35,189 nt of DNA. It comes from Caldilinea sp. CFX5. GTDB taxonomy: Bacteria; Chloroflexota; Anaerolineae; Caldilineales; Caldilineaceae. Within the stretch, counting starts at the first letter, position 1. Every line of letters starts with the position of its first letter. The notes under the pieces are model-generated. The model was not told the DNA's origin and searched no databases. It saw nothing but the letters and a program-made list of their open reading frames with translations. Location: assembly GCA_021405325.1 (NCBI GenBank), contig QWII01000131.1:1-35189 (forward strand). Direction: 5' to 3'. Of this stretch, positions 13,001 to 35,189 are shown piece after piece. Both the position numbers and the translations under genes were made by a program.

Positions 13001-13213
13001 CAACTTTGTCCATAAGATTACCGCAACCAACCAACAATTCTGGTTAGCTGAAACACCAAGCTGTGCTTGTCACCCCATTGACAACCAGCCCCGCAAATGG
13101 CATAATCAACATGAAACCGCACACCCGCGGTCAACATGCTACGTCATCGACCAACCTGTGTCGATCGCTTTCCTGGCTCTTGCTTGCATATAATAAATAA
13201 GCGACTCCCATTT

Positions 13214-22075: not shown

Positions 22076-22741
22076 TTGCCACATCCATTCACGATCAGCA
22101 TTGGGATATTTACGCGCCAGCGCATAAGGCAGTTCGACCATGCCATAGCCAATCGCCAAATCGGCTTTATGCAGTTGCTTCACCGTAACCAAATGTTGGC
22201 GTAATAATGGCGCTACACTTTGCGGCAACATGGTCACCCGATCCTCATTGCCTTTGGTATTACGAACGACAAGTTGCTGACGTTCAAATTCAATATCTTT
22301 GACGCGGAGCCGTAAACATTCCATTAAACGCATGCCACTGCCGTAAAGCAGCTTTGCCATCATTTGATGTAGTCCTGTCATTCGATCCAACACTTGGACG
22401 ACTTCAGCTTTGGTCAAGACCACCGGCAAATGTTTCTCCGGTTTGGCCCGCACAGCATCAATGCGTCCAATCAACTCGATCTTGAGAACTTCGCGGTAGA
22501 GAAAGAGTAACGCACTGAGCGCCTGATTTTGCGTAGAGGGCGCAACATTACGCTGAACAGCCAAGTGCGTCAGAAAAGCTTCAATCTCTGGGACGTTCAT
22601 CTCCTTTGGGTGACGAATGTTATGGAAGCGAATGTATCGCTCAATCCAGTCCACGTAGGATTGTTCTGTACGATAGGAATAATTTTTGAGCCGAATGGCG
22701 TCACGCACCTGGTCTAGAAGTTTCTTTGGTTTTTGTTCCAT
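22076..22741 (-). pseudogene. intI: Integron integrase relic (IntI-type tyrosine recombinase), 3'-truncated
   Basis: From ATG 22741 about 222 residues match integron integrases: a core-binding domain ([57 protein letters not shown]), the catalytic Arg ([20 protein letters not shown]) and Lys region ([13 protein letters not shown]), and the IntI-specific insert ([22 protein letters not shown], reported here in two overlapping pieces: [19 protein letters not shown] and NADREWMWQ). Homology stops at the Gln codon 22076-22078; the reading frame then runs on into the subtilase terminator and antisense of its gene. The HxxR, second His and Tyr nucleophile are missing, so it cannot recombine DNA. 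Divergent orientation to the array on its right fits an integron. Confidence 0.88.
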
Positions 22742-22763
22742 AAGTTTGCCATGAAGAATGTGA

Positions 22764-22792
22764 TTGACAAAATCGAAAAAAGTGGATATACT
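22764..22792 (+). promoter_or_regulatory. Near-consensus promoter facing the cassette array (Pc-like)
   Basis: TTGACA (22764-22769), a 17-nt spacer and TATACT (22787-22792) lie just upstream of intI but read in the opposite direction, towards the first cassette about 250 bp away. This is where a cassette promoter would be expected in an integron. The next 240 bp hold no gene. Confidence 0.75.
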
Positions 22793-23037
22793 AGAGACAG
22801 GTTCTTTACTGTGGGACAAGAACCCATGTTCTATTCTTCTGATTGTATCATCAACCGCTATCCAATGACACTGACAAAATACTGACGATGACTCCACTTT
22901 TAGATGGAAACCTTCTATTCACCTGTTTTTTGGGAAATGGACGGAAGCGGTGTTTTTTGGAAGATTAGGTTGCATCCGCCTAGTAGCGGCTTCGGCGGTG
23001 GTCGGTCTAATGGTCGCGATGTGTCGTTCCATATAAT

Positions 23038-23084
23038 GTTCGGCTGACTCCGTTGGCACACGCTAAGTACACAACGGGTTAAGC
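23038..23084 (+). other. Candidate attI / first cassette junction
   Basis: GTTCGGC at 23038-23044 matches the right-hand core of the palindromes A2-A5 (GTTCGCC) and is the complement of their left core GCCGAAC. A second candidate, GTTAAGC at 23078-23084, fits the classical GTTRRRY core. Either could mark the junction between the attachment site next to intI and the first cassette. Confidence 0.45.
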
Positions 23085-23175
23085 AAGTTCAAAGATTCAT
23101 CAAAATCTATTTATGTGTGTGGTAACGTATAATACATGAATCGACGATTAATATTTGCTGCATGGGAAATATTAA

Positions 23176-23703
23176 ATGAAAAAGCAAACAGATCATATTA
23201 TTGATGGCCTCTGGAATAAGGCAATCACTCCAGAAAATTACGGAGGACGAGAGTTGTATTATGCGCATTTGTTTGAGCAGTATCGAATTGTCATAAACGC
23301 AGCTGACCAGATTATAGAGCGCAGAAACACTGCCAATTCCTTTTTCTTGACCATCCACACACTTTTTATTACCGGACTAGGCGTAGCAATAGGTTATAAA
23401 GGTTCTTTGCAGTTACAGCAAGTTTGGTTTGTGTTGTTTCCATTAATACCGGCATTATCACTTTGTTATCTTTGGTGGCGAATTACAAAATCCTATAGTC
23501 AACTTAATACGGCAAAATATAAGATCGTTGGTGAATATGAGACGCAACTACCATCAAGTCCTTATTGGTCAGCAGAATGGAAAGCTTTAGGTGAAGGAAA
23601 GAATCGCAAACTTTACTGGCCTTTAACAGACATTGAAGGCCTAATTCCTTTGGTTTTTGGTATATTGTATGTCTCTGGAGTGCTTATATTCATCTTGATT
23701 TAG
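23176..23703 (+). CDS. SLATT/RipA-like small membrane protein (cassette 1)
   Basis: 175 residues with three hydrophobic helices (about 56-74, 83-101, 156-175). The order is a cytosolic N-terminal helix (YYAHLFEQYRIVINAADQII), then ERRNTANSFFLTIHTLF, a pair of helices, and WWRITKSYSQLNTAKYKIVG...LPSSPYWSAEW. This matches the RipA-family/SLATT-type two-to-three-helix proteins that often occur as effectors in nucleotide-dependent defence systems. Here it stands alone, without a nucleotidyltransferase or SLOG partner. A TATAAT at 23128-23133 may be its -10. It is clearly richer in A+T than the chromosomal genes to the left. Confidence 0.75.
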   Translation: MKKQTDHIIDGLWNKAITPENYGGRELYYAHLFEQYRIVINAADQIIERRNTANSFFLTIHTLFITGLGVAIGYKGSLQLQQVWFVLFPLIPALSLCYLWWRITKSYSQLNTAKYKIVGEYETQLPSSPYWSAEWKALGEGKNRKLYWPLTDIEGLIPLVFGILYVSGVLIFILI

Positions 23704-23713
23704 CAAAATAATG

Positions 23714-23751
23714 TTCGATATAGCAACTAGGGAGATTGCTCATGTATCGAA
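23714..23751. repeat. Small hairpin after cassette gene 1
   Basis: TTCGATATAGCAA pairs with TTGCT...TATCGAA across a 9-nt loop (stem with an internal bulge). It follows the stop by 10 nt. No T-run follows; it may be part of the recombination site or a degraded terminator. Confidence 0.5.
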
Positions 23752-23813
23752 TTCTGGAAGTTCTGCCCTACTTTCAGGCTTTATCTATGCCTTGGCCATT
23801 TTCTCATCCGACG

Positions 23814-23869
23814 GCGGAACATCGCCTCTCCCAAAGTAGATAACGCATGCCGTTAATGCGACTGTTCGC
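23814..23869 (+). repeat. attC-like site A1 (short)
   Basis: Left core GCGGAAC (23814-23820) and right core GTTCGC (23864-23869) are 56 bp end to end, with partly complementary arms (GCGGAACATCGC against GCGACTGTTCGC). It has the same left-end word GAACAT(C/T) and right-end GTTCGC as A2-A5 but is much shorter, and its central fold is weak. Confidence 0.5.
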
Positions 23870-23890
23870 AGAGTAGCTTAAGGCAAAAAC

Positions 23891-25411
23891 ATGTCAGAAA
23901 CATTCAATAAGGAGTATAGTGAAAAATGTAGATCCCTCATACTAGAGTACGCGGTATATCATCCTGAATTTCGTAAAAAACTCCATCAACTAAGTCAGAC
24001 TCAAGAGCAACTGCGTTATCCTGACATCAGAACATATACCCATCTGATGGGACAAGCGATGCAGCTTATTAATGAAATAGCATCTGATTGTGGGCTGTTT
24101 GAAGCTGTAAATTGGAGCCATTTATCAAATGAGCAGGTTCAACAGTTCCTCTCGTGGATGCTAGAAAAATCTCCTGAGCTATCATATTATGTTGAAGAAA
24201 GAGCAAAAAAACAGCAACCTAAATCTACAAGCCGTCCATTCCAAGAAAAGGTTGATGTTTTTCTTTCTTGGTCTATCAGTTCCCCTCGAGAACGGACGGC
24301 AATGTTAGGAGTGAAAGATAGCTTAGATGATTTTGGTATTAAGTATTACGACTTTACCGAACATCGCGTTGATTCCTCACGTGATGAGTCTGACAAAATT
24401 GAAGCAAAAATTTGCGAGGCGATCAATCAAAGCGTTTGTTCTATAGAACTAACATCATCCGAATTTCAAGGGCCTTGGATTGAATTTGAAAGAAGGCAAC
24501 TACGCAAAAAAGAGAACATTGTTAGAATAATACTGCATTTGGATCAGGAGTTTGGTGTATACGCGAATGACGAATTTCGTATTCTTAGACTACAGTTCTC
24601 TGATGGAAGATATCGAGCGCACCGAACTGATGATCAATCATGGCAAGATCAGGCATTTGACGCAAGTCATTATCAAAGCCAAGATTACCTTTCCAAATGC
24701 TATGCACTTGCACATCTCGTTAGAAACATCTGCAATGAAAAGGAGCCGATCAAAATAATAACCTCGCTCAAACCATCACAATTCGCATCCCCTGAAAAAT
24801 TGAGCTTCCCAACAAAACCTGTGGGTTTCGAAGAGACTCGCAGATTACTAGGCCAATATGGTCTCGCGAAACAAAGCCAGCGGCATACAGCAAATCAGAA
24901 GGTTGAATATAGTCTCTGGTTTCATTGGGTAATAGCATGTACCATTGGCTTAAGTATTGGGACTTCTTCATTTGAGATGGTTGGTTTTTGGGGCGTAGCT
25001 ATATTTGGTGTTTCGGTAGGCATCTTTCAATGGCTAGTTCTCAGAAGATATGCACTAAAGGTCAACTCATGGATATGGTGGAGTACGTTTGGTTCTGTTC
25101 TAGGCTTCGCAGTGGTGCCTGGACACATCGGTACATTAGGTGTTGGAGCGATAATTGGGACTATCATTGGTGTAGCGCAAGGGAATGTCATAAAGTGGGG
25201 AGTGATAGCAGCATTGATGTGGATATTAGCAAACATTTTCGGGTTCGCACTTGGCTTTGCCATAGCTAACTCTTTGGGTCTGTATGTAAGTAATTATATT
25301 GGCAATATCTGGAGTGGCACTATCGGAGGAGCTGCTGGAGGAATGGTATTAGGAATCATTACTGGTACTGCTCTAATTGGGTTATTAAGACGATTTTCTT
25401 CAGAGAGATAG
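23891..25411 (+). CDS. TIR-domain protein with multi-helix membrane C-terminus (cassette 2)
   Basis: 506 residues. Residues 1-105 form a helical domain (CRSLILEYAVYHPEFRKKLH, EQVQQFLSWMLEKSPELSYY) like effector-associated adaptor domains. A TIR-like domain spans about 120-225: VDVFLSWSISSPRERTAM, an acidic middle, and SSEFQGPWIEFERRQL, where Trp-x-x-(F)-Glu fits the usual C-helix Glu (E198 or E200). After a linker, residues about 343-500 form some six glycine-rich transmembrane segments (GVAIFGVSVGIFQWLVL, GTIGGAAGGMVLGIITGTAL). TIR domains in defence cleave NAD+ or signal; joining to a glycine-zipper membrane part is unusual. A+T-rich like cassette 1. Confidence 0.75.
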   Translation: MSETFNKEYSEKCRSLILEYAVYHPEFRKKLHQLSQTQEQLRYPDIRTYTHLMGQAMQLINEIASDCGLFEAVNWSHLSNEQVQQFLSWMLEKSPELSYYVEERAKKQQPKSTSRPFQEKVDVFLSWSISSPRERTAMLGVKDSLDDFGIKYYDFTEHRVDSSRDESDKIEAKICEAINQSVCSIELTSSEFQGPWIEFERRQLRKKENIVRIILHLDQEFGVYANDEFRILRLQFSDGRYRAHRTDDQSWQDQAFDASHYQSQDYLSKCYALAHLVRNICNEKEPIKIITSLKPSQFASPEKLSFPTKPVGFEETRRLLGQYGLAKQSQRHTANQKVEYSLWFHWVIACTIGLSIGTSSFEMVGFWGVAIFGVSVGIFQWLVLRRYALKVNSWIWWSTFGSVLGFAVVPGHIGTLGVGAIIGTIIGVAQGNVIKWGVIAALMWILANIFGFALGFAIANSLGLYVSNYIGNIWSGTIGGAAGGMVLGIITGTALIGLLRRFSSER

Positions 25412-25690
25412 GGGTCGTAAAGGTGAGGGAGCAGTCCGCCAATGCGTGCAGCCGACTTGGGGTACGCGCAGCGTTTTCAGGTCGTTTTCGTAGCTTCGGT
25501 CTGGTTTCGCCAAAGTAGCGTTGTCTCGTCCTAAACGGCTAACGCGAACCTTATAATCAAGTAATTTTCAACTGGGATAGCAGCCGAACAATCAAACAAC
25601 AAAATGCTTCTTGGAGAAGAATCAGGAGATTGGCAGCATTTTCATTTTGAATATATTTTTGTATAATTAACAATAAAAACAAAATAAAAT
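25412..25690. other. Geneless part of cassette 2 or a separate empty cassette
   Basis: About 280 bp between the TIR gene and site A2. The first 140 bp are G+C-rich with broken inverted words (GCAGTCCGCCAATGCG, GGTTTCGCCAAAGTAGCG, AACGGCTAACGCGAACC) that could be a decayed recombination site. The rest is A+T-rich. The leftward open frame across this area overlaps site A2 and is not considered a gene. Confidence 0.5.
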
Positions 25691-25818
25691 GCCGAACATT
25701 AGTTGCACCCGATGCCGCCGAGATCAAGCGTTTTTCACGTTGGTCGCCCGCACCAATTGGTTGGGTGCTTGATGTGATCTGCGCGCTAGCGGCGGCACGG
25801 GTGAACAGAGTGTTCGCC
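25691..25818 (+). repeat. attC-like site A2
   Basis: 128 bp. Left core GCCGAAC (25691-25697), right core GTTCGCC (25812-25818). The left arm GCCGAACATTAGTTGCACCC pairs with the right arm, whose complement reads GGCGAACACTCTGTTCACCC, and pairing continues after one unpaired A (CCCGATGCCGCC against CCCGTGCCGCC). The central region carries a second hairpin (GATCAAGC/GCTTGAT). Confidence 0.75.
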
Positions 25819-25976
25819 ATTTTTTGAGGATCAGAAGGGAAGGCCAGAGTAGTTAAACAGGAACGAGAATACGAGAGGCTCGCTAACCAAAAGCAGTTGT
25901 CATTCGTTGCGGCAAATCGTCTATGGTAAAATAGATCCAACAACAATACGTTGAAGTGAACAAGGCAACAAGAGAT

Positions 25977-26306
25977 ATGACGGATAGTGTACGCTGGCGA
26001 GTATTTGATCGACAAGGTAATCAAATCTACCTAACCCAGGAACGCTGGCAGCATATTATCGAAACCGATGGTCATCCGGAAATGGAAGAGTATGAGGAAG
26101 AACTCAAGGAAACGATCCGGCAGGGCAGGCGGAGACAGATTCCGGTTCAACCGCAGAAGTATGAGTATAGTAAGGCATATAACCATCTAGTTGATAACAA
26201 CACGCATATCATAGTCCTCGTCCTGTTTCGGATTCGAGAAAATGAGCAAGGGCGAGCCGTGGCCAATAACTACATCGTCACCGCGTTCCAAAAGGAAATC
26301 AAGTGA
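25977..26306 (+). CDS. Putative nuclease-toxin-like protein (BECR/RelE-like fold)
   Basis: 109 residues from ATG 25977 (a GTG at 25956 is an alternative). RWRVFDRQGNQIYLTQERWQ-HII, then GRRRQIPVQPQKYEYSKAY and NNTHIIVLVLFRIRE...NNYIVTAFQK match a common small family whose members look like RelE/EndoU-like (BECR) RNases next to DUF2283 genes. The conserved His, Arg and Tyr could be catalytic; this is inference. Its stop is 4 nt before the DUF2283 start. TAAAAT at 25927-25932 with TTCGTT 18 nt upstream may be its promoter. Confidence 0.65.
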   Translation: MTDSVRWRVFDRQGNQIYLTQERWQHIIETDGHPEMEEYEEELKETIRQGRRRQIPVQPQKYEYSKAYNHLVDNNTHIIVLVLFRIRENEQGRAVANNYIVTAFQKEIK

Positions 26307-26310
26307 GGGG

Positions 26311-26685
26311 ATGACAGAAGCGATTTTCAAATATGATGAAGTAGGCGATACTCTCTACATCACGTTTGTCCCTGGCAAAAAGGCAACCGGCATTGCACTC
26401 AACGATCAACTTTTGCTACGGGTCGATAAACAAACACGGCAGGCTGTGGGTGTGACCATTTTTGATTACTCGTATCTGGCACAACCGACAGAGATGGGGG
26501 TACGCAGTTTACCTCTGACAGGATTGGCAGAATTATCGGATGAACTGCGTGAACTGGCGCTGGAGATCTTGCGCAAACCTCCGGTCAATGAGATCTTGTT
26601 AGTTTCAACCTACTCGCCCTCGGTGACTGAGGTGGTTCCCATTACCCTATTACAGAACGAGATGCTGGCTACAGCCTATGCGTAA
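26311..26685 (+). CDS. DUF2283 family protein, probable antitoxin partner
   Basis: 124 residues from ATG 26311. FKYDEVGDTLYITFVPGKKA and LRVDKQTRQAVGVTIFDYSYLA are the DUF2283 signature. DUF2283 genes are very often paired with small toxin-like genes, including the family just upstream, so an antitoxin or regulatory role is inferred. GAGGGG lies close to the ATG. Both genes form one cassette bounded by sites A2 and A3. Confidence 0.7.
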   Translation: MTEAIFKYDEVGDTLYITFVPGKKATGIALNDQLLLRVDKQTRQAVGVTIFDYSYLAQPTEMGVRSLPLTGLAELSDELRELALEILRKPPVNEILLVSTYSPSVTEVVPITLLQNEMLATAYA

Positions 26686-26728
26686 ATCCAGTTTCCTTGC
26701 TGCACTCATATTGGATACAGCAAAAAAT

Positions 26729-26857
26729 GCCGAACATTGCGTGGTTCCGACTGGGCGAGATCACGGCTTTGGGCTGTCGGTTCCCCGCTTTGTTGCTTGT
26801 TCGTCTGTGCTGTCGGTCGCCCCGTAGCTCGCCCAGCGGCACACGCGTGTGTTCGCC
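26729..26857 (+). repeat. attC-like site A3
   Basis: 129 bp. Left core GCCGAAC (26729-26735), right core GTTCGCC (26851-26857). The left arm GCGTGGTTCCGACTGGGCGAG pairs with the complement of the right arm (GCGTGTGCCGCTGGGCGAG after a short mismatch), leaving one unpaired A after CCG, the same place as in A2 and A5. The conserved word GAGATCACGGCTTTG follows the stem, as in A4. Confidence 0.78.
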
Positions 26858-26983
26858 GCTCTCAGCGTTATCTAGGGCAGGCACAAAACCACCAACCAAG
26901 TTCCAGAGCTTATTTAAAATATCTTCGTAGGTTTGCCGTCCATCACTATACGGATGTGAGTATTTTGCAATCGAGTACACATT

Positions 26984-28324
26984 ATGAATAAATTAATTGG
27001 AGTGCTTGCAAGCCCAAACATATTCAATAGTTCGGAGTTTCGTAGCCTGAATCACCGGGCAGAAGCAATGGAGTTGGCTAACACTCTTAGACAATTTTGG
27101 CCTGCTCAATCGGGAACCGATATGTCTACCTTTACGGGATCATTCAGTCGCGAAGAACTTATGACCGCACTGCACAAGGCTGTTCAGAAAACAAAGTCAG
27201 ATGACATCTTTTTCTTCTACTATGCAGGACATGGATTCACGCGCGACAACGAGTCGTTTCTTGTAGTAAGCAACAGTAGAATAAACTCTCCTTCAAATAC
27301 ATGTATTGCACTAAGCGAGATCGTTCCTCTACTAGCACCACTTCGAAAAAAACTCATTATTATTGATGCATGCAAAGCTGGTGGTGTAGTCTCACAAGGA
27401 TTTGCACTCAGCACGCTATCGGTGCTTCCTGTGATTAGTGAATTTGCATCGGATCGTTTCACGGCCCTAGTATCTGCGGCTTCAGCGCACGAGAACAGCC
27501 TTGTTGGTGTCTTTACCGATAGTTTCATTTCTATTCTTGCAAGTATTTCAGCTACGGCTGAACAAGTCGATATTTTGGAATTTCTTGTGCGTATCAAGCA
27601 AGAGGTATCGATACGAACCAATGGACGACAAAACCCTTCAATCTCGTTTTCTGGCTCACCGGTCATTGTCGACTTTGCTTCATCTAATCATGAACAACGT
27701 GACTCGCGCTCACATTCTAGCACCCCAACTAGAGACAACATACGACGAGGAGATACTATGAAACAGATTAATGTGCTTGCAATTTTTGCTAATCCCAAAG
27801 GCAGCAATCCACTCAGGCTTGAACACGAAGATAGAGTGATCCGCGAGTCAACACGGTTGAGTCTTAACAGAGATAATATTCACCTTGACATCATGCATGC
27901 AGCAAGAATTGACGACTTTGCTCGTGCCTTGCTCGATAAGGATTATCAGATCGTTCACTTTTCGGGACATGGTACAGGAAGAGGCTTGGCATTTGAGAAC
28001 TCGCTTCAGGAAGTTCAAGTTGTTCCTAAAGATGCCCTAGCAGAGTCTTTGATGGCCTACAGCCCGCCTATCGAATGTGTTTTATTAAACTCTTGCTACT
28101 CGGATGTTCATGCTCAAGACCTCTCTGTTGGAGTACCATACACAATCGTTATGAGCGGGCCAATATCAGACGAAGGTGCTACTGAGTTTACACGCGGGTT
28201 CTATGACGCGATTGGAGCCGGTAAAAATATTGAGTTTGCCTACAAAGAGGGTTGCCGGCGCATTAAGTTAAAAAATCTCCCAGACGGGCTAACACCTGTT
28301 CTGATACCCAAATCGGTAAACTAA
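26984..28324 (+). CDS. Double caspase-like / CHAT protease (cassette 4)
   Basis: 446 residues with two caspase-clan domains. Domain one (1 to about 230): FFFYYAGHGFTRD with His83 and KLIIIDACKAGG with Cys130, the metacaspase/orthocaspase dyad. A linker rich in Ser/Arg (about 232-256) follows. Domain two (259-446): YQIVHFSGHGTGRGLAFE with His329 and CVLLNSCYSD with Cys371, the CHAT form. Bacterial proteins of both kinds serve as executioner proteases in anti-phage systems. No sensor, kinase or gasdermin is encoded beside it. An in-frame ATG with its own GAGGAG (27747-27760) could also produce the CHAT half alone. A+T-rich compared with the chromosome. Confidence 0.85.
   Translation: MNKLIGVLASPNIFNSSEFRSLNHRAEAMELANTLRQFWPAQSGTDMSTFTGSFSREELMTALHKAVQKTKSDDIFFFYYAGHGFTRDNESFLVVSNSRINSPSNTCIALSEIVPLLAPLRKKLIIIDACKAGGVVSQGFALSTLSVLPVISEFASDRFTALVSAASAHENSLVGVFTDSFISILASISATAEQVDILEFLVRIKQEVSIRTNGRQNPSISFSGSPVIVDFASSNHEQRDSRSHSSTPTRDNIRRGDTMKQINVLAIFANPKGSNPLRLEHEDRVIRESTRLSLNRDNIHLDIMHAARIDDFARALLDKDYQIVHFSGHGTGRGLAFENSLQEVQVVPKDALAESLMAYSPPIECVLLNSCYSDVHAQDLSVGVPYTIVMSGPISDEGATEFTRGFYDAIGAGKNIEFAYKEGCRRIKLKNLPDGLTPVLIPKSVN
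27747..27760 (+). promoter_or_regulatory. Internal ribosome binding site and start for the CHAT half
   Basis: GAGGAG (27747-27752) lies 5 nt before ATG 27758-27760, in frame with the caspase gene (Met259), exactly at the beginning of the second protease domain. The full-length start at 26984 has no comparable site. Two products (446 and 188 residues) are therefore likely. Confidence 0.65.
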
Positions 28325-28365
28325 TTTAGCAACCCAACATTCTAGGCAAAGGTGACGGGGCTTGC

Positions 28366-28494
28366 GGCGAACATTACATGAACAACGACCGAACGAGATC
28401 ACGGCTTTGTTATCGTTGGTCGCCCGCTTTAGCTGGTCGGGCACTTGGTGTTTTCTCCCCGCCACTCGCCCACCGCTTCATCACTGTGTTCGCC
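28366..28494 (+). repeat. attC-like site A4
   Basis: 129 bp. Left core GGCGAAC (28366-28372), right core GTTCGCC (28488-28494), a perfect complement. The inner arms pair less well (AACGAG against CTCGCC). The word GAGATCACGGCTTTG follows the left arm, and GTTGGTCGCCCGC is shared with A2. Confidence 0.72.
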
Positions 28495-28543
28495 GGCAAG
28501 ACGATCTCATGGGTAGGAACAGTAAAAACAGAAAAGTTGGGCG

Positions 28544-28572
28544 TTGTAGCTTGATCGACCACGTGGTATAAT
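28544..28572 (+). promoter_or_regulatory. Promoter of the RelE-type cassette
   Basis: TTGTAG (28544-28549), a 17-nt spacer and TATAAT (28567-28572) lie about 100 bp before the antitoxin ATG, inside the cassette. Confidence 0.6.
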
Positions 28573-28672
28573 AGACGCAGTGTTGACGGGAGACATAGGC
28601 TTTGGTGCGCCGTGTCGTCCTGGCAACGGACCGGAAGAGCGAGTTACGAATCAAGCCAGGAAAGTGACACAT

Positions 28673-28873
28673 ATGATGCAAGTGGAACAACTGCAACGTG
28701 CCATCGAAGCACTGTCGCCGCCCGAGTTTCGCCGACTGCGGCAGTGGTTTGCCGAAAAGGACTGGGAACGCTGGGATAAGCGATTAGAAGCAGACGTAGC
28801 TGCAGGCAAACTCGACTTTCTGCTAGAAGAAGCGCTAGCGGCGAAGCGCCAAGACATCTTACAGGACTTGTAG
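28673..28873 (+). CDS. Small antitoxin of a RelE/ParE-type pair
   Basis: 66 residues from ATG 28673 or 65 from the adjacent ATG 28676 (AGGAAAG upstream). MQVEQLQRAIEALSPPEFRRL, RQWFAEKDWERWDKRLEADV and AGKLDFLLEEALAAKRQ are typical of the short helical antitoxins that precede RelE-like toxins in cyanobacteria and Chloroflexota. Its stop is directly followed by the toxin ATG, with no intervening base. Confidence 0.75.
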   Translation: MMQVEQLQRAIEALSPPEFRRLRQWFAEKDWERWDKRLEADVAAGKLDFLLEEALAAKRQDILQDL

Positions 28874-29125
28874 ATGCATCGTACGACACCTCAGTTTTGG
28901 CAGCGCTTCGCCCAATTACCCGCAGCCGTGCAAAGTTTAGCCAGGAAAAACTTTGCCCTCCTCAAGCGTGATCCCAGTCATCCTTCGCTGCATTTCAAAA
29001 AAGTGGGCAGATACCGGTCGGCGCGTGTTGGATTACACTATCGTGTGTTAGCCGTGGAAGATGGTATGGACTTCATCTGGGTGTGGATTGGCACTCACGA
29101 TGAATACGACCGTCTGATTGGCTGA
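28874..29125 (+). CDS. RelE/ParE-family toxin
   Basis: 83 residues. MHRTTPQFWQRFAQLPAAVQ, FALLKRDPSHPSLHFKKVGR, ARVGLHYRVLAVEDG and VWIGTHDEYDRLI form the full ParE/RelE fold with the typical basic centre and C-terminal His/Asp/Tyr. Such toxins cleave mRNA on the ribosome or poison gyrase; which one is not clear from this subfamily. It begins right after the antitoxin stop and is bounded on the right by site A5. Confidence 0.8.
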   Translation: MHRTTPQFWQRFAQLPAAVQSLARKNFALLKRDPSHPSLHFKKVGRYRSARVGLHYRVLAVEDGMDFIWVWIGTHDEYDRLIG

Positions 29126-29204
29126 CACCGGCATGCTCGTTTTGCTGGCTCTGTCTGCTAACATGCTTCCTATTCATTGGTATAGCGGGAGTGTGTGAAC
29201 TGCC

Positions 29205-29288
29205 GCCGAACATCGTGTGGAACCGACCAGGGTGAGCTCGGCCTTTTGCTTATTCCTTACCTCCTGGCGGTTCACACCGGTGTTCGCC
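29205..29288 (+). repeat. attC-like site A5
   Basis: 84 bp. Left core GCCGAAC (29205-29211), right core GTTCGCC (29282-29288). Arms ATCGTGTGGAACCGACCAGG and the complement of the right arm (CCGGTGTGAACCGCCAGG) pair with a single unpaired A after CCG, as in A2 and A3. Confidence 0.75.
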
Positions 29289-29376
29289 ATCTTTTCGCTC
29301 CGCTCCATGCCATCCATATTGTCGTAATCCGCAGTGAAATTGCTTCCCCGATTGCGGTAGTATAAGCCAACCAGCC

Positions 29377-29482
29377 GTAGACACCTTCTTCAACAGGGGC
29401 GGCGTGGGCAACCGCAATGCCCCGCTGTCACCCCGCCCTGGTGCGCGGCACGCGCCGCTCGACCAGCCCAGCCGTGAACGGG
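29377..29482 (+). repeat. Family B cassette repeat B1
   Basis: About 105 bp beginning GTAGACACC and ending GCCGTGAACG. The left arm GGCGGCGTGGGCAACCG pairs, with bulges, with the right arm GTGCGCGGCACGCGCCGC; the loop is CAATGCCCCGCTGTCACC-like. There is no gene from 29289 to 29376. Repeats B1-B7 share this order and all lie in the same orientation. Confidence 0.7.
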
Positions 29483-29521
29483 CAGGTTCATTGCTATGCT
29501 AAAATTTACGAATAATGATGG

Positions 29522-29550
29522 TTGATACGTAGGTGAAACTATAGTAGAAT
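29522..29550 (+). promoter_or_regulatory. Promoter without a recognisable gene
   Basis: TTGATA (29522-29527), a 17-nt spacer and TAGAAT (29545-29550) precede about 120 bp with no convincing gene; an open frame starting at 29549 would begin inside the -10 box. The hairpin GGGAG(CAAGGT)CTCCC at 29586-29601 with a later T5 run suggests a short RNA; this is speculative. Confidence 0.45.
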
Positions 29551-29669
29551 GAAAGTACAGCTAAGAGGTCTAACCATTTTGGACCGTGGGAGCAAGGTCT
29601 CCCCTTGGCTGTCTTTTTGTTTGCCCAAATCACCGTGCCGATCAACAAGAGCGCTATGTATCTCTTATA

Positions 29670-29726
29670 GTCACCCCACCTCGGTTCGCTGCACGCGCCG
29701 GTTGACCAGGCCAACCGTGAACAGGC
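29670..29726 (+). repeat. Family B cassette repeat B2 (right part only)
   Basis: Holds GTCACCCC, CGGTTCGCTGCACGCGCCGG, TTGACCAGGCCAACC and GTGAACAGGCTG, the right half of the B element. The left half is missing or diverged. Confidence 0.65.
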
Positions 29727-29753
29727 TGCTACATTGTGCAGAGCGGTTGACGG

Positions 29754-29782
29754 TTGCTGAAAAGCGGGGAAATGAGTATACT
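29754..29782 (+). promoter_or_regulatory. Promoter of the retropepsin-like cassette
   Basis: TTGCTG (29754-29759), a 17-nt spacer and TATACT (29777-29782) precede the gene at 29820. GGAGAGAGG at 29801-29809 is its ribosome binding site. A TATAAT at 29812-29817 is too close to the ATG to serve. Confidence 0.5.
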
Positions 29783-29819
29783 GACGGCAGGATGCTTGTA
29801 GGAGAGAGGGGTATAATCT

Positions 29820-30035
29820 ATGTCATTGGCCGAACTGTTTCCTGATATTAAACTTCTTCCCCGTGCCGATAAATTGCGGTTGATGCAATTTCTGGTCGTT
29901 GAACTAGCGCAGGAGGAGGGGGTACCGTTGCTCACTGCTGGCGCTGAGTATCCGGTGTGGACGCCGATCAATGCGTTTGGGGCGGCAGAAACACTCATGA
30001 AAATGCTAGAAAATCACAAGGCAGCAAACGCATGA
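29820..30035 (+). CDS. Small antitoxin-like protein
   Basis: 71 residues: MSLAELFPDIKLLPRADKLR then LMQFLVVELAQEEGVPLL, and a C-terminal PVWTPINAFGAAETLMKMLE. Such short helical proteins, common in cyanobacteria and Chloroflexota, usually sit directly upstream of a retropepsin-like or PIN-like partner. Its TGA overlaps the ATG of the next gene (ATGA), so the two are coupled. An antitoxin or chaperone-like role is inferred from gene order only. Confidence 0.6.
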   Translation: MSLAELFPDIKLLPRADKLRLMQFLVVELAQEEGVPLLTAGAEYPVWTPINAFGAAETLMKMLENHKAANA

Positions 30036-30454: not shown

Positions 30455-30469
30455 CAGGACAATACCACA

Positions 30470-30736
30470 ATGGATAAGAAGCAGATTGATCCTACGCCTG
30501 AACACTTTGCGAGTTACGAAGAAGCCGCCGAGTTTTGGGATACCCACGATACAACCGATTATCTGGATGAGTTCACCACCGTCGATGTCCCTACAGCATT
30601 ACATGCACGCCGCTTTGAAGTCGAGATTGCCGAAGATGTGGTAGAACTCCTGCAAACGAAAGCTCGACAACAGGGTGTACCGATTGGCTATTTGGCCTCA
30701 GATCTCCTTCGCCGGCAGTTACAGGTCGCTGCCTGA
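30470..30736 (+). CDS. CopG/BrnA-like antitoxin
   Basis: 88 residues: YEEAAEFWDTHDTTDYLDEF and VPTALHARRFEVEIAEDVVE are typical of the CopG-type antitoxins with the FWDTH(D/S)T motif. The C-terminus (ARQQGVPIGYLASDLLRRQL) is the ribbon-helix-helix-like end. No toxin partner follows; the next sequence is a broken Rpn gene. It is therefore an orphan, or pairs with the upstream gene after a 15-bp gap. Confidence 0.7.
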   Translation: MDKKQIDPTPEHFASYEEAAEFWDTHDTTDYLDEFTTVDVPTALHARRFEVEIAEDVVELLQTKARQQGVPIGYLASDLLRRQLQVAA

Positions 30737-30763
30737 ACGCTATCAAGTAATAGGACAAACCAT

Positions 30764-31456
30764 AAGCGGATCAAGAAACTGCCGGCCATCTTCCCCATTG
30801 TGCTGTACAATGGCAAACGCAAGTAGAGTGCACCTACCAAGCTCAGCGACTTGATCGAAGGCGAACCGCCTTTGGGTGACTACGCCGTCGGGTTCCAGTA
30901 TCTGCTGCTGAATGAGAAAGCCTACAGCAAAGAGCAGTTGCTGAAGATTCGCAACATTGTGTCCACCCTGTTCCTGGCGGAAGGCCATTACGACATCGCT
31001 CTCCTCGAACAGGAGTTGTTGAACCTGTACGATAATGAGCCGGATAAGCAGGCGGTGTCGCTCTTTCTGAATTGGTTTCGTCAGTTGGCGTTGTATGGCA
31101 AAGTGTCACCGGACGACTACGAGAAGTTGGATGTTGTCTATCGGACGAAAGAGGAGGTACGAACCATGTTAGTGGCAACTTTAGAGCAGGAACGCAAGAA
31201 GATTTATCAGCAAGGCGAAGATGCTGGGGTTGTCAAAGGTCAGATGACAACCCAACGGCAGACGATTGGTCAACTCTTGCAATTCCGGTTTGATCTGGCG
31301 GATGCTGACCTACGCTACTTCATGCAACAAGTGGCAAACATACAAGAGTTGCAACAGTTAGACGAGTTGGTCGATGTTTTGCTAAACAAAGCAGCAACGC
31401 TTGCGGACTTCACTTCAACATTGACAAAATACCAGCCAGAGCATAAAGCGCATTGA
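30764..31456 (+). pseudogene. Rpn family nuclease remnant, 5'-truncated with an amber codon
   Basis: In one frame, KRIKKLPAIFPIVLYNGKRK, a TAG at 30824-30826, then SAPTKLSDLIEGEPPLGDYA and the full C-terminal helical part (QQGEDAGVVKGQ, LLQFRFDLADADLRYF). In Rpn proteins the blocked position is normally Trp (YNGxxxWxAP), so TGG to TAG is the simplest reading. The N-terminal nuclease core (GFKRLF, ExQ) is absent: upstream of 30764 the frame has no Rpn similarity and meets a stop. A TTG at 30851 could start a 201-residue fragment but would lack the active site. Confidence 0.8.
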
Positions 31457-31491
31457 TGATTGGTTTATTCTTTTGATGAGCAAAACTATAG

Positions 31492-31534
31492 AAGCGCAGA
31501 AGAAGTAGAGCCTTTCTCTGCGCTTTTGTTTTTG
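31492..31534 (+). terminator. Intrinsic terminator after the Rpn remnant
   Basis: AAGCGCAGA (31492-31500) pairs exactly with TCTGCGCTT (31517-31525), followed by TTGTTTTTG. Confidence 0.8.
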
Positions 31535-31541
31535 TACGATA

Positions 31542-31640
31542 GTAGACCGCCTGATCGGCCTCCTGGGCAAGGGGCGGCGTGGGCAAGTCCCCTGCCCCGG
31601 TTCGCGGCACGCGCCGGTCGACCAACCCAGCCGTGAACAG
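31542..31640 (+). repeat. Family B cassette repeat B3
   Basis: Full-length copy from GTAGACCGCC to GCCGTGAACAG. The left arm CTGGGCAAGGGGCGGCGTGG pairs, with bulges, with the right arm GGCACGCGCCGGTCGACC and CAACCCAG. Confidence 0.72.
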
Positions 31641-31694
31641 ATGGTTCGTCAACCCATCGCCCGACACAGGCACGTAGTCAGCACGAAGTCAGTT

Positions 31695-31724
31695 TTGGCA
31701 AGCTAGGCTCAAAAGTAGTATAAT
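31695..31724 (+). promoter_or_regulatory. Promoter of the mazEF-like pair, possibly leaderless
   Basis: TTGGCA (31695-31700), an 18-nt spacer and TATAAT (31719-31724). The antitoxin ATG is at 31731, only 6 nt after the -10 box, about where transcription should begin, so the mRNA may be leaderless. No Shine-Dalgarno is seen. Confidence 0.7.
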
Positions 31725-31730
31725 GGTAGT

Positions 31731-31961
31731 ATGAAAGTTAAAACATCCATTACGCTGTCTGAAAACCTACTCACCACCATCGACCAGCTTGCCGGCGAAT
31801 ACAAGAACCGTTCGTTCTTTCTGGAAACCGCGGCTTGGGCCTTTATTGAGTATCTCCGCCGCGCCGAGCGCGATGCACGTGACCTCGACATCATCAATCG
31901 CCGCGCTGATGCTCTCAATGAAGAAGCGCTCGATGTCCTCAGTTATCAAGCGCCGCGATGA
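31731..31961 (+). CDS. Ribbon-helix-helix antitoxin (MazE/CopG-like)
   Basis: 76 residues. [20 protein letters not shown] and [20 protein letters not shown] form the ribbon-helix-helix DNA-binding unit; the acidic tail ([20 protein letters not shown]) would bind the toxin. The ATG sits at the predicted transcription start. Its TGA overlaps the toxin ATG (ATGA), giving coupled translation. Likely autoregulates its promoter. Confidence 0.8.
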
Positions 31962-32293
31962 AACGGGGCGAACTTTATCGCGTTGCCAAACCGCCGGGGA
32001 CTGACCCGAAAAAGTTTCGCGTTTTTGTGGTAGTTAGCCGCCCTTTATTGATTGCCTCACGCTTTTCAACGGTCATTTGCGCGCCGGTTTATTCAATCCA
32101 CGATGGCTTATCAACCCAAGTGCCGGTAGGCATTGCCGAAGGTCTCAACCATGACAGCAGCATCCATTGTGATGAGTTGGCGAGCCTGCCCAAGTCCGTC
32201 CTCACTCACTACATTGGGACGTTGTCTCCGAATAAATTGGCAGAATTAAACAAAGCCTTACTGATTGCATTAGCCTTAGATGGCGTAATTTAA
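31958..32293 (+). CDS. MazF/PemK-type toxin
   Basis: 111 residues of the PemK/CcdB fold: [20 protein letters not shown] with the GELY and R motifs, then [42 protein letters not shown] and the closing helix [12 protein letters not shown]. MazF toxins cut mRNA at short sequences. All family blocks are present, so it should be active. It overlaps the antitoxin gene by 4 nt. Confidence 0.85.
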
Positions 32294-32324
32294 CCGGCAC
32301 GAAGTCACATTGCAACTGTCTCGT

Positions 32325-32392
32325 GTGTAACCGCAATGCCCCGCAGTCACCTCGCCCCGGTTCGCTGCCCGTGCCGGACGACCAGGCCAGCC
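32325..32392 (+). repeat. Family B cassette repeat B4 (diverged)
   Basis: Contains AACCGCAATGCCCCGCAGTC, CGCCCCGGTTCGCTGCCCGT and GACCAGGCCAGCC. The left end is missing. Downstream, CAGCC...GGCTGG can still form the small hairpin seen in other B copies. Confidence 0.65.
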
Positions 32393-32503
32393 ATACATCT
32401 AAAACAGCTAACAGCCCCAAAACAGGCTGGACAAAGGGGTAATCTGCGTGTATAGTATCGCCAGGTGCAGGTGTGATTTGCGCAGAAAGTAGGATATTCA
32501 GCA

Positions 32504-32911
32504 ATGGCTACCGTTCAGGTTGTTTCCAAAGTTACGTTGAATGTTGATCAGATGTTAGAGGGCGTTGCCCAACTCGATCTTGCTGAACTTGAGCGCTTTG
32601 CCTTTCGGGTCAGCGGTCTGGTGGCGCGCCGCAAAGCGCCTAGTTTGCCCAAGCACGAAGCCGAACTGTTGCAACAGATCAACCAGGGGTTGCCGGCAGC
32701 GCAATGGCAGCGCTATCAAACGCTGAATGCCAAGTTGCTAGATGAACGCATCACGCCGGATGAACACCAGGAATTGAGTGCGTTGATTGATCAGATTGAA
32801 CAGTTGGAGGGAGAACGACTTGCCCATTTGATTGAGCTAGCCCAATTGCGGAATGTGCCGTTGGCTACCCTTATGACACAACTTGGCATTGGGCAGCCAC
32901 GCAATGGCTAA
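32504..32911 (+). CDS. Uncharacterised helical protein preceding an HNH gene
   Basis: 135 residues. VTLNVDQMLEGVAQLDLAEL, then a long helical region (HEAELLQQINQGLPAAQWQR, ERITPDEHQELSALIDQIEQ) and NVPLATLMTQLGI. Proteins of this form occur immediately upstream of small HNH endonuclease genes in cyanobacteria and Chloroflexota; an antitoxin-like or DNA-binding role is inferred. Its stop lies 8 nt inside the next gene. Confidence 0.65.
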   Translation: MATVQVVSKVTLNVDQMLEGVAQLDLAELERFAFRVSGLVARRKAPSLPKHEAELLQQINQGLPAAQWQRYQTLNAKLLDERITPDEHQELSALIDQIEQLEGERLAHLIELAQLRNVPLATLMTQLGIGQPRNG

Positions 32912-33343
32912 ACGCTACATCACGGCAAAACAGCGGCAGGTGGTGATCGAACGGGCTGCTGAACGGTGCGAATATTGTCAATGTTGGGCCGCTATGCCAT
33001 CCAATCGTTTGATGTTGATCATATTGTACCTGTCAGCCGTGGCGGCACGTCAACCCTGGATAACTTGGCCTATGCCTGTTCGGGTTGCAATCGCCATAAA
33101 TTGAACCGGGTTGACGCGTTTGATCTCGTTGAGCAACAGACCGTGGCGTTATTTCATCCTCGCCTCGACCGTTGGCAAGAGCATTTTCAGTGGAATGACG
33201 ATTATACGCTGATGATCGGTTTGACGCCAACAGGGCGCGTGACAGTGGCAGCCTTGCAACTAAACCGCCAAGGTGTCGTCAATTTGCGTAGATTGCTCCA
33301 CATGATCGGTCAACACCCACCTTCCCTGTCTACAGACAAATAA
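32904..33343 (+). pseudogene. HNH endonuclease, frameshifted
   Basis: From ATG 32904: MAKRYITAKQRQVVIERAAE then RCEYCQC in one frame, and from about 32985 on GRYAIQSFDVDHIVPVSRGG, STLDNLAYACSGCNRHKLNR in the frame one base earlier. Both pieces belong to one HNH enzyme (CxxC, DHIVP, CxxC, NRHK), so a single base has been lost between about 32980 and 32998 (or gained twice). No slippery heptamer is present. The downstream part continues intact to 33343. A sequencing or assembly error is possible. Confidence 0.82.
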
Positions 33344-33350
33344 GAGATCT

Positions 33351-33408
33351 GTCGTCACCCTACCCTAGTTCGCTGCACGCGGCGGTCGATCAGGCTAGCC
33401 AAAAACAG
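33351..33408 (+). repeat. Family B cassette repeat B5 (right part)
   Basis: GTCGTCACCC, GTTCGCTGCACGCGGCGGTC and GATCAGGCTAGCC reproduce the right half of B. It runs into a terminator. Confidence 0.62.
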
Positions 33409-33420
33409 GCTGGCCTTTTT
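33393..33420 (+). terminator. Intrinsic terminator at the end of B5
   Basis: GGCTAGCC (33393-33400) pairs with GGCTGGCC (33408-33415, one G-T pair) and is followed by TTTTT. Confidence 0.75.
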
Positions 33421-33445
33421 GTCAACTTGACTGATAGATTGCTCA

Positions 33446-33474
33446 TTGACCAAAACCCAGATTTCGCCTATACT
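33446..33474 (+). promoter_or_regulatory. Cassette promoter of the mntA-hepT pair
   Basis: TTGACC (33446-33451), a 17-nt spacer and TATACT (33469-33474). A nearly identical 31-bp stretch (two differences) lies at 34256-34286 before the brnT pair. Confidence 0.8.
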
Positions 33475-33531
33475 TCTCGTAGCTGACCGGATGATGATTT
33501 GCTGTGCGAATCGGGAAGGGGAAGCGGACTT

Positions 33532-33834
33532 ATGTTGACAATCCACCAAGTCACAACCACTTTACGCCAACAGTTGCCCTACTTGTCGGCAGAGTACGGG
33601 GTTACGCGGCTTGGCATTTTCGGTTCATACGCCAAAGGCACGCAACAGGAGCAGAGTGACATTGATCTGGTTGTCGAATTCAAAACCCCACTTGGCCTCC
33701 GCTTTGTCGAGTTGACCGACTATCTTGAGCAGATTTTGCAGCGACCGGTGGATGTCCTGACACCGGCAGGGATTGGCGCTATTCGTAATCCACAAGTGGC
33801 CAAAGATATTCAGGAGTCTCTAGTCTATGTCTAG
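33532..33834 (+). CDS. mntA: MntA-type nucleotidyltransferase antitoxin
   Basis: 100 residues from ATG 33532 (GGAAGGGGAAG upstream). The minimal nucleotidyltransferase motif is complete: GIFGSYAKGTQQEQSDIDLV with Gly31-Ser32, Asp43 and Asp45. In studied MntA-HepT systems this enzyme transfers AMP to the toxin and so silences it. The stop overlaps the next ATG by 8 nt, giving coupled synthesis. Promoter at 33446-33474. Confidence 0.88.
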   Translation: MLTIHQVTTTLRQQLPYLSAEYGVTRLGIFGSYAKGTQQEQSDIDLVVEFKTPLGLRFVELTDYLEQILQRPVDVLTPAGIGAIRNPQVAKDIQESLVYV

Positions 33835-34195
33835 CACCAAAGAAGAGGCTTTCCTGAAAGATATTCTGGAGGCCATCCGCCGAATCCAGGCTTATACCGA
33901 AGACATAGACTATGACGCCTTCTGCGCAGACATCAAAACGCAGGATGCGGTCATGCGCAATTTAGAGATTATCGGCGAGGCAGCCAAACAGCTTTCCGAA
34001 GCAGTGCGTCAACAAGCCCCACAGATTCCTTGGCGCAATATTGCGCGTATGCGCGATAAGCTCATTCATCACTACTTTGGTGTCAACCTTGATATTGTTT
34101 GGCATGTGGTTCAAGATGATCTAACCCCATTGATGACAGCCGTAGTGGGTATTTTGGCTATAACAGACTCCCCTAAAGACACCCAAAAGGGATAA
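33827..34195 (+). CDS. hepT: HepT-type HEPN ribonuclease toxin
   Basis: 122 residues of DUF86/HepT: DILEAIRRIQAYTEDIDYDA, AVMRNLEIIGEAAKQLSEAV and the RNase motif Arg76-x4-His81-x-Tyr83 in RMRDKLIHHYFGV. The Tyr is the residue modified by MntA in known pairs. All required residues are present, so the pair should work. The C-terminal tail is polar and short. Confidence 0.88.
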   Translation: MSSTKEEAFLKDILEAIRRIQAYTEDIDYDAFCADIKTQDAVMRNLEIIGEAAKQLSEAVRQQAPQIPWRNIARMRDKLIHHYFGVNLDIVWHVVQDDLTPLMTAVVGILAITDSPKDTQKG

Positions 34196-34200
34196 GTAAA

Positions 34201-34255
34201 CGGCCTGACCACCCTCCTCGACAAGGTGTGACGTGCGCAACCGCACCGCCCCGCT
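34201..34255 (+). repeat. Family B cassette repeat B6 (left part only)
   Basis: GGCCTGACCACCCTCCTCG, ACAAGGTGTGACGTGCGCAA and CCGCACCGCCCCGCT match the left half of B; the right half is replaced by the promoter at 34258. Confidence 0.6.
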
Positions 34256-34257
34256 CA

Positions 34258-34286
34258 TTGACCAAACCCCAAATTTCGCCTATACT
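34258..34286 (+). promoter_or_regulatory. Cassette promoter of the brnT pair
   Basis: TTGACC (34258-34263), a 17-nt spacer and TATACT (34281-34286); sister of the promoter at 33446-33474. Confidence 0.8.
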
Positions 34287-34348
34287 TTCTGTAGAATGAG
34301 CAGCCATGAGTGAAGTGCGAACACGATGCTGAACATTAATGTATCGCT

Positions 34349-34621
34349 ATGAATTTCGAGTGGGACGAAAACAAAGCCAAGGCGAACTTTGCAAAGCACC
34401 GGGTCTCTTTTGATGAAGCAAAGACTGTTTTCGTTGACCCATTCTATGTTGATTTCTACGATCCTGATCATTCTGCTGATGAAGAGCGCTATATCATCAT
34501 TGGAGAATCACAGCAGGGGCGCTTGTTAGTGGTCTCCTAGACCGAACGGCAACAGAAGACGCGGTTAAGTAGTGCGCGGGAAGCAACGCGCCGGGAAAAG
34601 GATGCCTATGCAGAAGGTTGA
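34349..34621 (+). pseudogene. brnT: BrnT-family toxin interrupted by an amber codon
   Basis: MNFEWDENKAKANFAKHRVS, FDEAKTVFVDPF, DEERYIIIGESQQGRLLVVS, then TAG at 34538-34540, then TERQQKTRLSSAREATRREK in the same frame to a TGA at 34619-34621. BrnT proteins normally have Tyr or His before TER, so the codon has changed to TAG and separates the C-terminal part (RLxSARxAT) that carries conserved Arg residues. The product would be a 63-residue fragment, probably inactive. Start chosen by similarity. Confidence 0.8.
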
Positions 34622-34847
34622 ACCCGAGATGGTCGATGATCTCCGGCCAGAATATGACCTAAAAAGCCTGCGCGTGCGAAAAGTTGGCCCGCAACGCGCC
34701 GGCTTTGGCGGACATTTTGTCCAACTAGCCCTCGATGTCGCCGAGGTGTTCCCAGATGCCGACGCGGTGAATGAAGCGTTGCGCTTTTTAATTCGCATTA
34801 CCCGCGAAAATCAGCTTGCACTCTCTGGGGTCAACAAGGGAGCATGA
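34602..34847 (+). CDS. Antitoxin partner of BrnT
   Basis: 81 residues from ATG 34602 (or 79 from ATG 34608), overlapping the end of the brnT frame. MVDDLRPEYDLKSLRVRKVG and FPDADAVNEALRFLIRITRE match the short partners found after brnT in cyanobacteria and Chloroflexota (usually written DVAEVFPDxxxVNEALR). It should bind the toxin and the operator. It remains intact though the toxin is broken, the order expected when a toxin is lost first. Confidence 0.75.
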   Translation: MPMQKVEPEMVDDLRPEYDLKSLRVRKVGPQRAGFGGHFVQLALDVAEVFPDADAVNEALRFLIRITRENQLALSGVNKGA

Positions 34848-34986
34848 GTGAAGGATAGCTTTCGGTTGCTGATCGTAATTCGTCATTCCATATTCGGCTC
34901 CCTTGAGTTTACCCTCCTATCATTTGCACCGACGGGCAAGCGAAAGTAACGATCTCAATCTGTACGTCACTACGCACCCAATGGCA
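34848..34986. other. Non-coding gap
   Basis: About 140 bp between the last antitoxin and repeat B7. I see no gene, promoter or hairpin of note. Confidence 0.5.
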
Positions 34987-35090
34987 GTAGACCGCCTTCA
35001 TAGACAAGGTTGCTATGTGAACAAGCGCAACGCCCCGCTGTCACCCTGCCCCGGTTCGCGGCACGCGCCGGTCGACCAGCCCAGCCTTGC
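34987..35090 (+). repeat. Family B cassette repeat B7
   Basis: Nearly complete copy: GTAGACCGCCTTCATAGACA, GCAACGCCCCGCTGTCACCC, CGGTTCGCGGCACGCGCCGG and TCGACCAGCCCAGCC. It ends where the inverted repeat R3 begins. Confidence 0.7.
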
Positions 35091-35092
35091 CT

Positions 35093-35189
35093 ATGGGAGT
35101 TAGGAATTTGTTTCGGTAATCGTAGGTGCGGTTTGTAACCGCACGGTTCCCAGGGAGCAAGTGCGGTTACAAACCGCACCTACGATTAC
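35093..35189. repeat. Dispersed palindrome R3, inverted copy of R2
   Basis: All 97 bases equal the reverse complement of 9091-9158 joined to 9191-9219. The palindrome arms are 35116-35144 and 35161-35189, and the window stops exactly at the arm's end, so the element may continue or the contig may break here. Confidence 0.92.

Follow-up and report, generated by a model that had tools for sequence, protein, structure and literature searches.

A probable Chloroflexota integron with a truncated integrase and defence-like cassettes, beside a toxin-antitoxin block marked by a different repeat

The right-hand part of contig QWII01000131.1 from Caldilinea sp. CFX5 carries the remains of an integron integrase gene (intI) followed by a long series of genes, among them genes of defence and toxin-antitoxin type, and the question that this locus raises is whether all of them are cassettes of one integron. 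The first-pass annotation of this DNA had read them as a single integron cassette array extending over about 12 kb; this holds for the left part of the series and not for the right part, where the repeats belong to a different family. The whole stretch of DNA that was analysed, here called the window, is 35,189 nucleotides long and positions are counted from its first letter. We put at about 0.85 the probability that the locus is an integron that belongs to a Chloroflexota bacterium of Caldilineaceae type and has lost the C-terminal catalytic part of its integrase, that its attC array is fixed, and that the block to the right of the array is separate. The locus contains an IntI relic, a promoter-like site and four palindromes of the attC type, which all point the same way and of which each stands behind one or two genes.

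The intI relic is on the minus strand at 22076-22747, as had been noted, and corresponds to residues 1-222 of an integron integrase as delimited by the TIGR02249 model and by alignment with full-length relatives. It scores 289.8 bits against TIGR02249 (cut-off 265), covering positions 1-215 of the 315 in the model, and it has in common with named integron integrases a stretch of 19 residues, which we take to be the IntI-specific insert; by this model match and this shared stretch it is an integron integrase. The closest database protein, P0001, is full length (320 amino acids) and 99% identical to the relic. The two are collinear up to the residues EWMWQ and are unrelated after that, and the open frame of intI continues past the relic into the 3' flank of an S8 peptidase gene, to 21857. 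Residues 223-320 are gone, including the HIFRH, LLGHKD and IYTH blocks that are common to the relatives and are presumably catalytic. Because these blocks are gone the relic should not be a working recombinase. A complete, catalytically competent IntI is lacking and the integron is not a complete one.

The relatives considered are the best 120 of 8000 that were scored. Among the matches listed are integrases named as Caldilineaceae, Anaerolineae and Chloroflexi, which are 67-82% identical to the relic, the exceptions being a Thiofilum metagenome-assembled genome and a Neosynechococcus; the proposal of a Chloroflexota-type integron is supported by the names found among these best matches, and compared with these named integrases the one described here is cut short. 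In 16 of the 120 listed relatives the C-terminal end was unaligned or the spellings used for the tyrosine block were absent. Five of these stop abruptly, as at contig ends (P0010, P0025, P0040, P0065 and P0072), two are nearly complete in spite of being flagged (P0044 and P0085), and nine have altered or unrelated tails (P0004, P0011, P0023, P0032, P0034, P0035, P0046, P0062 and P0087). Among these integrases decay may be a recurrent event, errors of assembly or gene calling being the other possible source of such tails. Among the integrases with altered tails, P0004, which is named Caldilineaceae, has a contig of 14 Mb listed and P0062 one of 165 kb. A search of viral contigs with the integrase gave eight loci at 39-60% identity, where the attC model described below finds nothing at E<=0.1.

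A promoter diverging from intI had been proposed, and the Pc-like sequence TTGACA-17-TATACT at 22764-22792 on the plus strand, which reads away from intI, would be that promoter. It is a consensus match only, with 11 of 12 positions matching. The scan for promoter-like sites gave 27 sites against 16.1 expected from shuffles, and the best-scoring ones (11/12) are this site and one at 31695. Between the promoter and the first gene lies the putative attI region (22793-23044, plus strand), assigned from its position between intI and the first gene and from a core word match, TGTTCGGC, at 23037. As expected, this core has no pairing signal, since 413 of 1000 shuffles pair as well.

The four palindromes, all on the plus strand and identified from alignment, folding and covariation, are attC2 (25691-25818, 128 bases), attC3 (26729-26857, 129 bases), attC4 (28366-28494, 129 bases) and attC5 (29205-29288, 84 bases), the last one detected. 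They start with GCCGAACAT or GGCGAACAT and finish with TGTTCGCC, so that their ends are invariant, CGAACAT at the left and the same right-hand word throughout. Counted in the unshuffled sequence only, this pair of words occurs at four sites on the plus strand and at none on the minus strand. Between 22.0 and 29.4 kb the shorter word TGTTCG[CG] occurs on the plus strand at 23037, 23863, 25811, 26850, 28487 and 29281, in every case in an intergenic position at a unit boundary. Folded as DNA, the four sites form long imperfect hairpins from either strand, and in their alignment the outer boxes hardly vary, the inner stems changing in a compensatory fashion. Pairing holds in 74 of 80 cells; changes on both sides are seen in 8 of 20 pairs, a number reached by 0 of 500 shuffles; and when the partner is slid by 1-3 columns pairing is only 20-42%. 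The consensus hairpin has an energy of -10.8 kcal/mol. A generic palindrome scan recovered two of these sites: attC2 was detected on both strands and so was attC3, where shuffles gave 0.11 matches each, the largest number being 2. A covariance model built from the set gives the four sites E<=2.4e-17 and the next match in the whole window E=0.38. The distances from the end of the gene to its own site are 280, 44, 42 and 80 bases for attC2 to attC5. Palindromes conserved in structure, at the 3' ends of cassettes and in one orientation, are thus found at four sites, with mixed results in tests of single sites: against shuffled upstream DNA attC2 (3/1000) and attC5 (1/1000) are clear, whereas attC4 and attC3 are not, as given below, and the counts for four control words were 124, 397, 293 and 572 per 1000.

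attC2, attC3, attC4 and attC5 close cassettes 2, 3, 4 and 5, respectively, all with genes on the plus strand. The first gene (23176-23703) codes for a protein of the 8xMP octameric membrane protein family (PF24838, E=8e-36), and its attC is doubtful: a short candidate at 23812-23870 on the plus strand, with the TGTTCGC core at 23863, is weak. Cassette 2 (23891-25411) codes for a protein with a helical N-terminus, a TIR/flavodoxin-like alpha-beta domain and C-terminal hydrophobic helices, for which a Foldseek search found nothing similar at E<=0.001. An identical protein, P0121, is listed for two contigs, neither longer than 4,319 bases, and not for one of 35 kb, and the TIR-like cassette may also have been assembled elsewhere. 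Cassette 3 has two genes, one an open reading frame for a 116-amino-acid protein that has no Pfam match at cut-off (25956-26306) and the other for a DUF2283 protein (26311-26685; PF10049, E=3.6e-5), the start of which is an internal ATG that we chose. Cassette 4 (26984-28324) codes for a caspase (C14) and CHAT protein (PF00656, E=5e-16; PF12770, E=7e-13), which also matches NF047832 with E=9e-18, below the cut-off of that model. Cassette 5 consists of a putative antitoxin of 68 amino acids, an open reading frame upstream of the toxin with no family match (28667-28873), and a ParE/RelE-like toxin (28874-29125; PF24732, E=1e-6). Relatives of the 8xMP protein were not found in viral contigs. The store of defence genes proposed in the first-pass annotation comprised TIR, caspase/CHAT, SLATT-like, MntA-HepT, MazEF, BrnT and RelE; we find TIR-like, caspase/CHAT, 8xMP and ParE/RelE-like genes in cassettes, while MntA-HepT, MazF and BrnT are outside the attC array.

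To the right of attC5 the genes are separated by another repeat, D1, of about 100 nucleotides and on the plus strand. nhmmer finds six copies at E<=2.1e-19, namely a (29393-29492, E=3e-24), b (29645-29735), c (31557-31649), d (32316-32402), e (33344-33419) and f (35006-35100), with a profile trained on the D1 copies themselves; a partial copy g (34223-34254, E=0.074; direct repeat D5) has the first half only, and outside these copies the window yields E=1.6 at best. The D1 core, with up to three mismatches, has five matches, all in the right half, and none in 100 shuffles. All six copies are between listed genes, where 30% of the stretch is intergenic, and this would occur by chance with a probability of about 0.0008 if the copies are independent; copy b overlaps an open reading frame without a family (29549-29845), which was left off the gene list. 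Four of the six copies have a promoter-like site 26-46 bases behind them (five sites considered), and copy e ends in a terminator-like stem. D1 is conserved chiefly at the sequence level. It has a consensus hairpin of 14 pairs and -5.7 kcal/mol, the attC sites having a longer one with -10.8; in D1 pairing holds in 90.5% of 84 cells, the covariation score is reached by 4 of 500 shuffles, changes on both sides are seen in 4 of 14 pairs (reached by 6 of 500 shuffles), and sliding the partner lowers pairing to 17-52%. Judged by these alignment statistics the D1 hairpin is probably real. The single copies fold differently from each other and have no AAC/GTT end boxes.

Is D1 an attC site like those of the left half? 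It was rejected as such, for the attC model finds no match there: in 29.4-35.2 kb its best value is E=0.084 with filters off, and there is none at E<=1 in the search of the whole window. The word TGTTCG[CG] occurs once on the plus strand of the right half, at 33077, within the gene for an HNH endonuclease. The structured repeats that had been claimed between units are therefore present as four attC-type palindromes in the left part, and the attC type was not detected in 29.4-35.2 kb. D1 has no match on plasmids, and exact-pattern scans for it in viral contigs gave 0, 0 and one match (L018) that fails to extend. On the minus strand five of the six copies (29427-29485 and others) share the peptide-like stretch L(V/I)(D/N/E)RRV(P/Q)RT(G/R/E)(A/V)G with substitutions that are not plainly silent; it could be chance or a coding remnant. 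A 42-base repeat (88%) at 33441-33482 and 34253-34294, with a promoter-like TTGACC-17-TATACT, precedes MntA-HepT at one place and BrnT at the other, and at 34253 it is directly behind the first half of D1, as though the second half had dropped out.

The genes of this right half are, on the plus strand, a CopG/BrnA-like antitoxin (30470-30736; PF12441, E=7e-14), a MazE-like antitoxin (31731-31961; NF050104, E=0.0017, below cut-off) with a PemK/MazF-like toxin (31958-32293; PF02452, E=1.5e-14), a 135-amino-acid gene with an HNH endonuclease that is split over two frames (32504-33343; PF01844, E=7e-11 on 32966-33343) and the start of which, by eye, sits in another frame, an MntA-HepT type VII toxin-antitoxin pair (33529-34195; PF01909, E=1e-16; PF01934, E=8e-31) and a BrnT-like toxin (34349-34540; PF04365, E=7e-19, profile 1-56 of 77), apparently shortened by an in-frame stop as seen by eye. 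The NCBIfam MntA and HepT models match the pair at 33529-34195 below their cut-offs. An Rpn-like remnant, with its start missing by eye, has no family match. Viral contigs contain two relatives of HepT, at 35%, and none found of the 135-amino-acid gene. Because no attC of the left-half type is detected in the right half, the reading of MntA-HepT, MazF and BrnT as cassettes of the integron is unsupported. Within the limits of detection the block from 29.4 kb is outside the attC array, and it is most likely a neighbouring toxin-antitoxin cluster with a multiplied, hairpin-bearing intergenic repeat that often has a promoter behind it.

Several results weigh against this reading of the locus as an integron with a separate right block. 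The attC structure was derived from the same alignment that was used for the pairing count, which is biased towards structure, and the scores of the attC model are circular because the four sites trained it. The model has no independent positive, since neither the viral integrase loci nor a cyanobacterial plasmid whose integrase is 66% identical (best only E=0.7) provided one; in 12 viral loci it gave nothing at E<=0.1. attC4 and attC5 are below the threshold of the generic palindrome scan, attC4 (114/1000) and attC3 (312/1000) are not distinct from shuffles when tested singly, and there is no sure attC behind the first gene, 106 of 1000 shuffles pairing as well as the candidate there. At gathering scores Rfam has nothing in the window, the presence of an attC family in Rfam not having been checked. 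Textbook attC boxes are RYYYAAC and GTTRRRY; the end boxes of attC2 to attC5 deviate from these and retain the AAC/GTT core. The break in intI is possibly a fault of assembly, and the separate origin of the right half is less clear-cut because D1, too, has a consensus hairpin with compensatory changes. A slightly relaxed scan for the textbook consensus on the plus strand returned eight pairs, and the ends seen in attC2 to attC5 are not among them: two start from 25691 with wrong ends, one (28388-28542) overlaps attC4 and the others are elsewhere. The attC pattern matched three stretches of viral contigs, none of which is backed by the model, and L020, which was inspected, is not attC-like.

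Could the recombinase be an enzyme like XerC or XerD, and the array a defence island without site-specific cassettes? The tyrosine recombinase fold is common to all these enzymes, but 290 bits for integron integrase against 63 for XerC and 58 for XerD, together with the 19-residue stretch in common with named integron integrases, refute this reading, one that the first-pass annotation had named as a possible refutation of its own, and we give it next to no credence. It is unlikely, to a much lesser degree, that the truncation of intI is an assembly error and the real element a working integron. A full-length protein 99% identical to the relic does exist, its contigs being no longer than 2,072 bases, and a dispersed repeat forms the end of the present record; however, the intI frame continues into the flank of the S8 gene on the side of its terminator, and other relatives have replaced C-terminal ends, although those may be errors too.

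The extent of the array is a separate matter. If the whole of 23-35 kb were one integron array, the attC sites of the right half being too degenerate or too different and D1 being attC sites or pieces of them, then the same orientation, the one- and two-gene units and the same kinds of genes as in the left half, the position of all six D1 copies between listed genes and the covarying D1 hairpin would be accounted for. Yet the attC model does no better than E=0.084 there, the D1 hairpin is shorter, weaker and without AAC/GTT boxes, its copies fold unlike one another, and the only TGTTCG[CG] is inside a gene, and we consider a single array rather doubtful. We think it probable that the right half is a toxin-antitoxin island of the ordinary kind, through which a repeat between genes, a hairpin or terminator often with a promoter behind it, was spread by duplication or transposition, and that this island is beside the integron by chance or from a shared tolerance of insertions. 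The decayed genes (the split HNH, the BrnT with an in-frame stop and the Rpn-like one without a start, all by eye), the promoter-like sites behind four D1 copies, the terminator-like stem of copy e, the repeated promoter in two places and the presence of another dispersed repeat in the window fit such an island, but none of the six D1 copies is in the remaining 29 kb of the window and the spread of D1 is hence uneven. Very unlikely is a second modular array downstream, lacking attC boxes of the integron type, in which toxin-antitoxin units each starting with D1 and its conserved hairpin, mostly followed by a promoter, would be exchanged by recombination at D1 and not by IntI, the locus having switched its mode of collecting genes. 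Toxin-antitoxin units between 28-base XerC/XerD sites are known as pdif modules, and the right half resembles these in consisting of small units set apart by a repeat; it differs in that no dif-like 11-6-11 site was seen in D1 by eye, no formal scan having been made.

For the integron with its separate right block the most likely history would be the following. IntI would once have inserted cassettes at attI, with the core near 23037, and a deletion would later have joined intI to the 3' flank of the S8 gene. Because of this deletion the array would neither gain nor lose cassettes by means of its own enzyme; its few genes, which are abortive-infection-like or of the addiction type, would be retained as a fixed set and transcribed from Pc or from promoters of their own. 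IntI supplied from elsewhere could still move the cassettes.

The window appears to be an entire contig, since the longest contig given for its own caspase-CHAT protein is 35189 bases. The rest of the window, up to 21999, is filled with other genes, the last being a 2559-amino-acid gene of S8 peptidase type, as judged by eye. The guanine-plus-cytosine content is 58% in 1-21999, 45% in 23.0-29.3 kb and 52% in 29.4-35.1 kb. That the genes of 23.2-34.6 kb are on the plus strand is true of all those with a family match, and their arrangement in units of one or two genes is likewise as first described. The five minus-strand open reading frames that were run (25557-26024, 27220-27666, 30843-31178, 26669-26980 and 29729-29998) have no Pfam family at cut-off, nor does 29549-29845 on the plus strand. 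A complete gene for an Rpn-family nuclease (13136-14065; TIGR01784, E=2e-32) is upstream of the S8 gene, and has no detectable relationship with the Rpn-like remnant of the right half. A dispersed inverted-repeat element with arms GTAGGTGCGGTTTG(T/C)AACCGCAC is present in three places, 110-180, 9091-9227 and 35093-35189, which are 80-100% alike; the last of these is the end of the record and adjoins D1 copy f, which runs into it.

Systems against phages are reportedly stored in sedentary integrons (Darracq et al., 2025). The likeness to such stores is that defence-like and toxin-antitoxin genes are cassettes here, their function being inferred from sequence; the arrays of Vibrio are far larger than this one and have a working IntI. 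Chloroflexota are among the phyla that bear integrons (PMC8618304), and a Chloroflexota metagenome-assembled genome is among the carriers of a sul4 module linked to an integron integrase (PMC12772301). Cassettes frequently carry toxin-antitoxin or phage-resistance genes (PMC9668308), and the notion of sedentary integrons as stores of defence systems is cited in PMC13064858. In Xanthomonas the integrase has been lost and the arrays kept (PMC12444791, PMC8618304). Publications thus already exist on Chloroflexota integrons, on dead integrases and on cassettes with defence genes. The Xanthomonas integrons with inactivated intI are like the present one in that intI is truncated and the cassette array kept; here, however, the phylum is another, only four attC are sure, and TIR-like and caspase-like cassettes are present. 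Clusters of at least two attC sites with no integrase nearby (CALIN) are about as common as complete integrons, 2961 against 2760 in one survey (PMC9024848), and the present array would act like one of them, with no active integrase left, but here an intI relic, still above the model cut-off, and an attI-like region remain. In the literature searched no paper was found that names both 'integron integrase' and 'Caldilineaceae', nor, judging from titles and the beginnings of abstracts, an integron paper of this sort on Chloroflexi, Caldilinea or Anaerolineae.

The locus is a probable Chloroflexota case of an integron with defence-like cassettes that has lost its integrase, and it bears on the question of whether defence genes are a changing stock or are retained once they are useful. 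The end boxes of its attC sites (GTTCGCC) are unlike the textbook consensus and may aid searches for attC in Chloroflexota. The repeat-bounded toxin-antitoxin block beside the integron is a concrete puzzle.

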